In this document: positions 61,152 through 62,734 of the stretch, piece by piece
How the letters are laid out: every line of letters starts with the position of its first letter
How positions within the stretch are numbered: the stretch's first letter is position 1
Assembly (NCBI RefSeq): GCF_017695975.1
Contig: NZ_JAAORN010000001.1
Span: forward strand, 62,001-126,000
Direction of reading: 5' to 3'
DNA: 64,000 nucleotides
From: Prochlorococcus marinus CUG1417
GTDB taxonomy: Bacteria; Cyanobacteriota; Cyanobacteriia; PCC-6307; Cyanobiaceae
The notes under the pieces: generated by a model
The model's database searches: none
What the model saw: the letters and a program-made list of their open reading frames with translations, nothing else
Told to the model about the DNA's origin: nothing
Program-made: the position numbers and the translations under genes

Positions 61152-61200
61152 TTAATCTACTTGTCATAAGGCACTTTAAAGAGTTAAATTCATTTTATAT

Positions 61201-61272
<72 letters not shown>

Positions 61273-61292
61273 TTTTAAAGTCTCGAAAAGTC

Positions 61293-61310
61293 ATGCAAAG
61301 TTATGCAAAG
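61293..61310 (+). repeat. Short tandem repeat of ATGCAAAG with 10-base period
   Basis: ATGCAAAG occurs at 61293-61300 and 61303-61310, 10 bases apart (one helical turn), just past the tRNA repeat. Such helically phased repeats next to an attachment core are used by recombinases as arm sites. It could also be chance. Confidence 0.35.
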
Positions 61311-61334
61311 TCACCTAAAAGGTGACTTTTTTTT
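61309..61334 (+). terminator. Strong Rho-independent terminator behind tRNA-Asn
   Basis: Stem AGTCACCT (61309-61316) and AGGTGACT (61320-61327) are exact reverse complements around the 3-base loop AAA, followed by eight T (61327-61334). It would end tRNA-Asn transcription 37 bases past the gene. It lies inside the mini-island, so the island brings its own terminator. Confidence 0.88.
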
Positions 61335-61366
61335 GCCTATGACTACCTTCTCAATGAAAAATGTCT

Positions 61367-61415
61367 AGACGAATAATGACACTATAGTGAAATTTTATTC
61401 GTCCATTATTCGTCT
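61367..61415. repeat. Perfect 12-base inverted repeat with central palindrome
   Basis: AGACGAATAATG (61367-61378) and CATTATTCGTCT (61404-61415) are exact reverse complements. The spacer holds CACTATAGTG (61380-61389), a perfect 10-base palindrome. Arms and palindrome resemble binding sites of a recombinase or repressor. Confidence 0.65.
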
Positions 61416-61434
61416 TTTTATTCATCTTTTAGCA

Positions 61435-61448
61435 AAAATATTCGTCCA
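61435..61448 (+). repeat. Left copy of the 14-base island direct repeat
   Basis: AAAATATTCGTCCA is repeated exactly at 62163-62176. Both copies lie outside the two cargo genes and near other ATTCGTC copies (61397, 61408, inverted 61368; right side 62156). Confidence 0.65.
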
Positions 61449-61490
61449 GATTTTTAGTCACTTTTCCTGCTATTTCTCACGTTTTTATCC

Positions 61491-61673
61491 TCAGTCGCAA
61501 TAAATTAAACAATTCTGATTAGTCGGATGTTTTCTACATTCCTTATCCCAAAAGTTTTGAAACTCAGAATTACATTTTTCTAGTTCTTGTGGAGTCTCAT
61601 TCAAGTTTAACCCTGCATAATTAAATGCAGTTAGGTATCTTGGAAGGACATTGAATTGATTGAATAGTTTCAT
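61491..61673 (-). CDS. Cysteine-containing small protein, 60 residues (mini-island cargo)
   Basis: ATG 61673 follows a perfect ribosome site AGGAGGT (61677-61683 on the minus strand) three bases away, which is rare in this AT-rich genome and supports translation. The product starts MKLFNQFNVLPRYLTAFNYA and has four cysteines late in the chain: Cys34, Cys46, Cys55 and Cys59 (the last in LIYCD). No signal peptide. No family was recognised. A second AGGAGG lies 26 bases upstream, without a start codon. It is divergent from the 105-residue gene with 161 bases between. Confidence 0.6.
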   Translation of the reverse strand: MKLFNQFNVLPRYLTAFNYAGLNLNETPQELEKCNSEFQNFWDKECRKHPTNQNCLIYCD

Positions 61674-61834
61674 AAGACCTCCTAGATCTATATCTATATT
61701 GTCCTCCTATTAACTTGAAATTCATAGAGTATTATTACCCGAGTAGAAGTGCTTTGAGGTATCATCAAGAATTTCCATAAAAAATAAACTATCATTTATA
61801 GAATTAATGAAAAGAAAATAATCTTTGATATTTA

Positions 61835-62152
61835 ATGTTGCGACTTCTTCCTCTACCGATTTTTATTTGCATTTATCTATTCTCTTGGTGGAGATGTAAA
61901 AAAAATATTATCGCTAGTGATGAGCAACTAAAACCATGCATTGATTGGGCATATGTAAAAAATTTACCGATCCCACCAAAACCTTCATTTATCGAGTTTT
62001 ATATTGTTTATGTTTCTTCTTTTTTTAAATTCCCCTTTGGGATAATTGTTCAACAACTACCTTTCTCAAAGAAAGTAAGATATTACGAAAGAGAAATGAA
62101 ATTAATATTTGATAAATGGAATTTAGAAAAAATTAAAAAAATAAAAAACTAA
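61835..62152 (+). CDS. Membrane-anchored hypothetical protein, 105 residues (mini-island cargo)
   Basis: ATG 61835 to TAA 62152. The N-terminus is a hydrophobic segment (LLPLPIFICIYLFSWWRC) that looks like a signal anchor, then a polar region with Trp39 and Pro-rich NLPIPPKPSFIE, a second hydrophobic stretch FYIVYVSSFFKFPFGIIVQQ (residues 55-74) and a basic, Lys-rich tail. No family was recognised. The gene is divergent from the 60-residue gene and both lie between the 14-base repeats, as if they were a cargo unit. Confidence 0.5.
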   Translation: MLRLLPLPIFICIYLFSWWRCKKNIIASDEQLKPCIDWAYVKNLPIPPKPSFIEFYIVYVSSFFKFPFGIIVQQLPFSKKVRYYEREMKLIFDKWNLEKIKKIKN

Positions 62153-62162
62153 TTTATTCGTC

Positions 62163-62176
62163 AAAATATTCGTCCA
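62163..62176 (+). repeat. Right copy of the 14-base island direct repeat
   Basis: AAAATATTCGTCCA, exact match of 61435-61448. Directly before it is TTTATTCGTC (62153-62162), also present at 61394-61403, so the two motifs appear in the same order on both sides. Confidence 0.65.
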
Positions 62177-62246
62177 TTTTCTTATTTTTTTCATATATGT
62201 CATGACATATTGTTTCATATCAAGACATATTTTGTTTAATGCTCGA

Positions 62247-62261
62247 CCGCCCGGGGAGTTT
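62247..62261 (+). repeat. Right copy of tRNA-Asn 3' end direct repeat (attR-like)
   Basis: CCGCCCGGGGAGTTT is identical to 61261-61275. Upstream of it the sequence is not tRNA, so this copy is a fragment, not a gene. It marks the far end of the mini-island. Confidence 0.8.
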
Positions 62262-62734
62262 AATAAAAATTTTAAAATTATTAAAAGACTTCACAAGTCT
62301 CTTTTTTTAATATCCATAAATTGAACTAGAAGCAAATAAAAGATTTATTAAATTTCTTATATTATTTCACGTATATATATTTTTCTGATGAATAAAAACT
62401 TACTTGATAGCGAGTCTACTTCTATCGCATTATTAGATTTTTATTAGGAATAATTAGAAAAGCAATAAGTACTTGTCGAAATATTTTTATTACTCTTTGG
62501 AATACTGAGTTAATTTGAAAATATTCTATATGCATCATCGGGTTTAATCTTTAAAAATCTCCGATTATTATTTCATTAAAATAAATATATCTTAGAAAGA
62601 ATTTTATTCACTAATTTTATATTCATAAGATCTAATTAAGAGGCTTGTAAATCTTTTTCTTTAAATTTTTAAAAATAAATTTTTGGCATCAGCTTTAATA
62701 GTTTTTATATGAAGTTAAATATTTTTAATTTTAC
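62262..62734. other. 473 bases without a gene
   Basis: After the terminator-like hairpin (62286-62308) I find no ORF with good support on either strand. A 19-codon run at 62388-62447 (MNKNLLDSESTSIALLDFY) is too short to call. The rest is AT-rich and probably decayed or regulatory DNA at the border of the polysaccharide genes. Confidence 0.6.
62286..62308 (+). terminator. Probable original tRNA-Asn terminator, displaced by the island
   Basis: AGACTT (62286-62291), loop CAC, AAGTCT (62295-62300) is a perfect 6-bp stem followed by a T run (62302-62308), 25 bases past the right repeat copy. In an uninterrupted tRNA-Asn locus this would lie 25 bases behind the end of the tRNA repeat, just where a terminator is expected. 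Confidence 0.65.

Follow-up and report, generated by a model that had tools for sequence, protein, structure and literature searches.

What is the segment that lies behind the tRNA-Asn gene at 61261-62261, and how did it come to be there? In the window, by which we mean the whole 64,000-nucleotide stretch of Prochlorococcus marinus CUG1417 DNA that was analysed, CCGCCCGGGGAGTTT occurs at 61261-61275 and again at 62247-62261, with 971 bases between the copies and no third copy in the window; core to core, the segment measures 986 bp. An earlier interpretation made from the letters alone (the sequence-only reading) had reported this 15-base repeat of the tRNA 3′ end and its spacing, and both positions were reproduced exactly. 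With up to two mismatches allowed, the repeat has two sites in the whole genome (1,652,921 bases), so it is not scattered over many unrelated places, and a reversed-pattern control at the same tolerance gave zero sites in the own genome. The features of the locus are as follows.

61200..61273, plus strand: tRNA-Asn (GTT), the putative integration target (Rfam RF00005, 67.5 bits, Rfam span 61201-61272)
61261..61275, plus strand: attL-like core: left copy of the repeat, made up of the tRNA 3′ end and TTT
61307..61329, plus strand: hairpin then T run, the terminator that the element brings in immediately behind the tRNA
61368..61374, minus strand: ATTCGTC arm-type-like repeat, left end, inverted
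61397..61403, plus strand: ATTCGTC arm-type-like repeat, left end
61408..61414, plus strand: ATTCGTC arm-type-like repeat, left end
61420..61426, plus strand: ATTCATC, differing from the repeat by one base; several relatives have ATTCGTC here
61440..61446, plus strand: ATTCGTC arm-type-like repeat, left end
61491..61673, minus strand: ORF1, 60 aa, small protein
61835..62152, plus strand: ORF2, 105 aa, small island protein
62156..62162, plus strand: ATTCGTC arm-type-like repeat, right end, -103 from the unit end
62168..62174, plus strand: ATTCGTC arm-type-like repeat, right end, -91 from the unit end
62197..62231, plus strand: two 15-bp repeats (ATGTCATGACATATT / ATATCAAGACATATT) between the right arms and the core
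62247..62261, plus strand: right repeat copy, attR-like core
62262..62330, plus strand: sequence apparently displaced from the tRNA by the insertion (weak match, 75-81% over 62-70 bases)

The left end starts with a hairpin and a T run, by which the unit gives the tRNA a terminator again. This hairpin is the single terminator-like site in 61180-62400 (0.4 expected) and is kept in relatives of the element. Over the element, Rfam returned no RNA above the gathering score except the tRNA, the second match being far below it. Six of the 12 ATTCGTC words in the 64-kb window lie inside the element; the right pair, 12 bp apart, ends 72 bp before the right repeat copy, and the two 15-bp repeats that follow are largely kept across the window family. 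ORF1 and ORF2 are the two longest ORFs between the repeat copies. Neither inspection of the ORFs nor tblastn with 13 integrases revealed an integrase within the element, which agrees with the earlier description of just two small genes. Family searches with ORF1 and ORF2 gave nothing over the cut-off in Pfam or NCBIfam (the Pfam matches, at E 0.04, are under it) and none in PHROGs.

To place the repeat pair in context, 37 distinct tRNAs of the own genome were searched over 9.8-15.1 kb downstream of each (1.3 kb for tRNA-Lys) for an exact copy of at least 11 bases around the tRNA 3′ end. Such a copy was absent in 33 of the 37. It was convincing for three, namely tRNA-Asn (a 15-mer), Pro-TGG (a 30-mer, which was the maximum length tried, with its end 9.1 kb downstream) and Ser-TGA (an 18-mer at +250), while the AT-rich 11-mer found 11.4 kb downstream of tRNA-Phe is probably a chance match.

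Based on blastn, the same element is present in other genomes at 88-98% identity, with 97.6% in L065, 95.3% in L036, 94.7% in L041 and 87.6% in L042. The laboratory strain MIT 9302 (L218) carries a near-identical copy as well. The corresponding upstream flanks (1,490 bp) are 88.7, 88.5, 88.3 and 73.8% identical. The 300 bp to the right of the second core show global identities of 73.6% (L065), 73.2% (L036), 74.2% (L041) and 70.2% (L318), against a mean of 73.1 and a maximum of 78.6 for 30 unrelated pairs of 300-bp windows; the right flank of L042, at 81.7%, exceeds that maximum and is thus not clearly unrelated. Since the element is similar and its flanks are mostly unrelated, the shared unit extends from one core to the other, which is the signature of site-specific insertion, and the comparison itself places the borders of the unit at the two cores. 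In L065, where the element comes second in an array, the sequence to its left is different as well (65 and 72% identity); a unit that ends at both cores and has different neighbours on each side points to insertion of the unit alone. Additionally, L334 (G230) holds the window element at 88.9%, preceded, as judged by eye, by the right end of an L061/L067-type unit, and no tRNA was found in that stretch. By comparison, movement of the element is well supported.

The right end of the window family was detected in 16 of 266 genomes of the genus, one in each, and in 4 of 300 genomes of the taxonomic family (own included), all within the own genus. A core with at most two mismatches follows it by 92 or 91 bases in 14 of the 16 segments, and the 14 members that could be sized span 220-2,176 bp, eight of them at 960-1,000 bp; L321 and L322 have no known left border. 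A left-end pattern matched 10 of 229 genomes and added L335 (1,081 bp, with ORF2 present and ORF1 absent) and L334, both missed by the right-end pattern, so that 16 genomes is a lower bound. No integrase was found in the 16 right-end segments by tblastn with the 13 integrases. A phage or viral source was considered and rejected: no relative of ORF2 was found in viral contigs or phage records and no element DNA in phage records, and viral contigs held no exact right-end or circle-junction pattern, exact patterns being of a kind that misses variants.

Are there sites from which such units are absent? The tRNA-Asn region was matched in 196 of 200 sampled genomes, and 60 loci were fetched with up to 12 kb downstream; the sample is not random, 26 loci being the top of the similarity list and the others mostly long contigs. 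A downstream core copy (CGCCCGGGGAG, at most one mismatch) lies in 24 of the 60 loci, which together contain 30 bounded units of 169 to 9,760 bp, and small units of 169-256 bp are present at the site. Five loci (L061, L065, L067, L069 and L081) carry tandem arrays of two or three units. Among the other 36, L037 and L038 have degenerate second copies with two mismatches; at least two thus hold a degenerate copy, and at most 34 look unoccupied in the fetched sequence. Occupation is therefore not universal among relatives, the opposite outcome having been named by the sequence-only reading as counting against integration. An intact integrase was found in one of the 30 units (L069) and a remnant in one (L077), using tblastn with the 13 integrases, a search that other integrase kinds may escape.

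The flanks beyond the copies in L036, L040, L067, L069, L070 and L081 match first-copy flanks elsewhere at 84-93%. Thus, the sequence after the last copy matches the post-tRNA flank of L055 in L036, L040 and L069 (85% for L069), that of L066 in L067 (89%), that of L084 in L070 (93%) and that of L053 in L081 (91%). At the level of sequence comparison, these matches establish that empty tRNA-Asn sites exist in the genus, with the tRNA directly followed by the ancestral flank. For the window itself, the first part of 62262..62330 is weakly similar to what immediately follows tRNA-Asn in some other genomes: the match covers 62-70 bases (the core partly counted) at 75-81% in L093, L065, G010 and G089, recurs after a core copy in L085, and covers 44 bases at 80% in G195. 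The sequence common to the displaced flank and its matches is largely a terminator hairpin, and the 150 bases after the second core match in just 15-32-base pieces. Upstream of the tRNA, no locus among the 60 exceeds 89.9% identity to the window flank. The empty-site comparison that the sequence-only reading had proposed was thus borne out in part: displaced flanks reveal empty sites in the genus, and a sister genome that differs by the absence of this element alone was not found.

The ends of the element are conserved. Nine related units share the left end and the right end, and four of these (L039, L040, L043 and L046) have interiors unlike that of the window; L039, at 220 bp, is nearly the two ends alone. 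We scored the best 8-mer common to both ends in units of at least 500 bp (n = 33; L268 and L269 gave no bounded unit). The window scored 6, and scores of at least 4 and at least 5 were reached by 23 and 15 of the 33 units, respectively, compared with three and none of 3,000 random segments of window positions 1-61000. Nine of the 23 units are the window and its relatives and are therefore not independent. Ten of the 33 units scored at most 3; one of these is L042, a member of the window family, and two others (L072 and an L067 unit) scored 0.

Other families have a repeat word of their own at similar places, usually as two copies that lie ~103 and ~92 bases before the right end (a single exact copy in some), with one to four copies in the left end. 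These words are ATGTTGGGAA in L314, L079 and L081; ATGGTCGGGAA in L069 and, with variants, in L068; ATGGTGGGGAA in L313, with variants in L070, and in the right end of L064; GTTCTGGT in L136; and ATGTGTTTT in L071, L078 and L086, and in the left end alone of L082. L135 has ACTAGTC/ATTAGTC at the places of the window family's ATTCGTC; over 749 bp, the left part of L135 is 91% identical to L046, whose arms have the ATTCGTC word. Lambda integrase is the model for arm-type sites of tyrosine recombinases, and on this analogy the ATTCGTC-type repeats may be considered putative arm-type sites.

Bounded units with an intact tyrosine recombinase do exist at tRNA-Asn, namely L135 (7,990 bp), L136 (7,949 bp), L069 (7,101 bp), L313 (10,261 bp) and L314 (14,637 bp), and in all five the integrase points towards the tRNA. 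Three words are common to integrase-bearing and integrase-less units: that of L314 with L079 and L081, that of L069 with L068, and that of L313 with L070. Nine integrases were compared in their N-terminal part. Identity is 62-74% among those of L069, L313 and L314, whose words are alike, and 47% or less in every other pair, where the words look different by eye, with L323 as a partial exception; the number of integrases is small, and the likeness of words is a visual judgement throughout. No integrase-bearing ATTCGTC-type unit was found in 16 searched segments, the nearest being L135, in which a 68-aa helix-turn-helix protein, weakly like excisionases and below the Pfam cut-off, lies beside the integrase. 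The L135-type integrase had no match in the own genome at E 1e-10, and the three PF00589 proteins encoded there are other than this type. The own genome also encodes a 389-aa divergent tyrosine recombinase (G000:C1:495984-496406, L132), and a protein of 389-aa length recurs many times among the matches listed in a 200-genome search.

Based on this evidence, we consider that 61261-62261 is probably (at roughly 0.77) a non-autonomous, site-specifically integrated miniature element, mobilised in trans by the tyrosine recombinase of another element. A near-identical piece beside unrelated neighbours in relatives makes it look like a tiny passenger of larger elements' enzymes, and the sequence-only reading's proposal of a minimal non-autonomous integrated element is supported by the restriction of the repeat to two sites in the genome and by the empty sites. 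In this mechanism, a visiting or co-resident larger element would supply a tyrosine recombinase belonging to the tycheposon-like class that occurs at tRNA-Asn. The enzyme would bind the arms (the ATTCGTC repeats) and the core, and would integrate the 1-kb unit at the tRNA 3′ end or excise it as a circle. Each integration would rebuild the tRNA, its 3′ end and a terminator being carried by the unit, and ORF1 and ORF2 would be passengers. The trans-acting enzyme, the function of the arms, the circular form and mobility at the present day are what we infer here.

More tentatively, and with somewhat less than an even chance of being right, tRNA-Asn may be the shared dock of an addressed-cassette system, in which a common core is combined with interchangeable arm repeats of ~11 bp that would name the integrase. 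The arms would stand at near-fixed places, ~103 and ~92 bp before the right end and usually at least twice in the left end, and free-riding cassettes, some of 169-220 bp and made up of hardly more than their ends, would use a helper's address, stack, and reload with small genes. Among the genomes searched, the ATTCGTC address was seen on free-riders alone.

The alternative that survives best, although we regard it as unlikely, is that the element is a dead remnant or CIME which lost its integrase, is closed as a unit to action in trans, and spreads solely in cis, when a neighbour in the array excises and takes it along, or by homologous recombination in its flanks; it overlaps the preferred reading, so that the odds of the two are not mutually exclusive. 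Tandem arrays at five of the 60 loci, as well as in L334, are in line with it, as is the lack of an integrase-bearing ATTCGTC-type unit in the 16 segments. In L315 and L316, ORF1 immediately follows the stop codon of the integrase, which puts part of the interior beside integrases as well, and CIMEs and accretion are documented in the available part of PMC5704250. However, the L065 unit is bounded by cores with differing neighbours on both sides, the end repeats and both ORFs are kept in relatives, and in three cases integrase-bearing and integrase-less units have a word in common. A specific form of decay, the single deletion of an integrase-bearing parent, was suggested by the match to L315 and L316, which starts directly after the integrase stop codon with ORF1; no tRNA was found in either stretch. 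Yet in L077, the unit with an integrase remnant, the ORF1-ORF2 segment has the orientation opposite to that in the window, and since the integrase points to the tRNA in all five integrase-bearing units there, an inversion or second recombination would be needed; a single deletion was therefore rejected. Serine-resolvase-like genes, as read from the sequence, are present in the integrase-bearing islands L135, L315 and L316 and are a possible cause of the inverted segment.

It is improbable that the element is moved by its host, with the 389-aa protein, or a recombinase of 321 aa (near tRNA-Thr) or 221 aa (near tRNA-Pro), acting on the core. The 389-aa protein is found in the own genome and, among the matches listed, in many others, and would be available without a helper, but family-specific words at similar places fit element-encoded integrases better. 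Words are also similar where N-termini are 62-74% identical and, with the partial exception of L323, different by eye where they are at most 47% identical. It is scarcely credible that the segment is plain intergenic DNA whose second tRNA end arose by chance or duplication: other routes for copying a tRNA 3′ end exist, but the presence of just two copies in the genome, the 33 of 37 tRNAs without one, the empty sites, the conserved ends and the different flanks contradict it.

With regard to the cargo of the proposed miniature element, ORF1 and ORF2 are intact in all six elements compared (window, L036, L041, L042, L065 and L318); the 973-bp unit of L271, which had been aligned by length alone, is unrelated and was excluded. 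Changes relative to the window, counted over both ORFs (501 bases) and over 485 other bases, were 7 and 33 in L318, 10 and 29 in L036, 12 and 32 in L041, and 3 and 15 in L065, with L042 (41 and 46) an exception to the pattern. Third codon positions show no clear excess of changes. The counts suggest that ORF1 and ORF2 may be under constraint and are no proof of it. Relatives of ORF2 are common in Prochlorococcus (144 matched), and ATTCGTC follows the ORF2-type gene within 60 bp in nine of the 80 loci examined from these 144. The gene thus also resides elsewhere, and its use as a marker of the element was rejected. The start of ORF1 and its upstream leader (window 61652-61760) recur at G000:C2:16034-16143 and G000:C1:42591-42685 with 84-85% identity, and also in units L071 and L082; tblastn did not find ORF1 itself at the two own-genome copies, and the recurrent sequence is perhaps a reused leader or promoter.

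Among known systems, we would class the element as a CIME-like miniature of the tycheposon setting and not as a tycheposon itself, although it may work like a satellite of tycheposon-type elements. Tycheposons, for which Hackl et al. 2023 is said to be the founding paper, are known in Prochlorococcus and have been claimed in Methylophilaceae too. Like them, the element is integrated at a tRNA gene 3′ end, belongs to the same host genus and has a small cargo beside a tRNA, and larger units with tyrosine recombinases occupy the same tRNA-Asn. No tyrosine recombinase of its own was found among its ORFs or by tblastn with the 13 integrases, and its 986 bp lie below the 4-200 kb given for tycheposons in the available part of PMC10872708. 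Tycheposons are listed among proposed phage satellites in the accessible text of PMC11389934.

A CIME, as defined in the accessible part of PMC5704250, is a cis-mobilizable element, that is, a decayed ICE or IME that keeps attL and attR and is without integration genes. The element likewise appears to keep both att sites, in the form of its two core copies, carries two small ORFs without a family match over the cut-off and no integration or transfer genes, and occupies a site where tandem arrays have accreted. It differs from that definition in having no known ICE/IME parent, in having apparently inserted alone in at least one genome, in keeping repeats at both ends and in the 169-256 bp units at its site. 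The nearest documented arrangement that we found, as far as the available portion of PMC3146451 goes, is that of the ssrA islands of Dehalococcoides, which are tandem, carry RNA gene 3′-end repeats and include 15 without an integration module; they differ in their serine recombinase DsiB, their catabolic gene cargo and their host. The element would work like MITEs and CALINs, as these are treated in the accessible text of PMC11389934, as a hitcher that has no integrase or transposase and is moved by a relative's enzyme. In contrast to them it has a single RNA-gene target, and its borders are direct repeats instead of the terminal inverted repeats of a MITE (0 of 22 inverted pairs join the borders). 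In the portions available of the literature on tycheposons, CIMEs and miniature tyrosine-recombinase elements, we recognised no matching integrase-less miniature, which does not prove its absence there.

The comparison goes beyond the earlier proposal in pointing to a family within the genus, conserved ends, arm-like repeats with family words and integrase-bearing units at tRNA-Asn. In streamlined ocean cyanobacteria, small genes often turn over without a visible agent. Miniature elements made up of recombination sites only would explain one- or two-gene changes beside tRNAs, and they would escape integrase-first searches. Arm repeats would become a readable clue to which integrase pairs with which element, and units of one word, with and without an integrase, offer a direct test.

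Two other tRNA genes of the own genome carry bounded units. At tRNA-Pro(TGG) (G000:C2 3810-3883, L131), a 9.1-kb unit is bounded by a tRNA-Pro 3′-end repeat of at least 30 bp; it contains a 221-aa integrase-domain ORF and has GGGGTAGCTA repeats in both ends, at distances unlike those in the tRNA-Asn units. At tRNA-Ser(TGA) (G000:C1 625455-625541, L264), a 250-bp unit bounded by an 18-bp tRNA 3′-end repeat has a tandem TTGTTGGCAGAT pair towards its right end and looks like another miniature.
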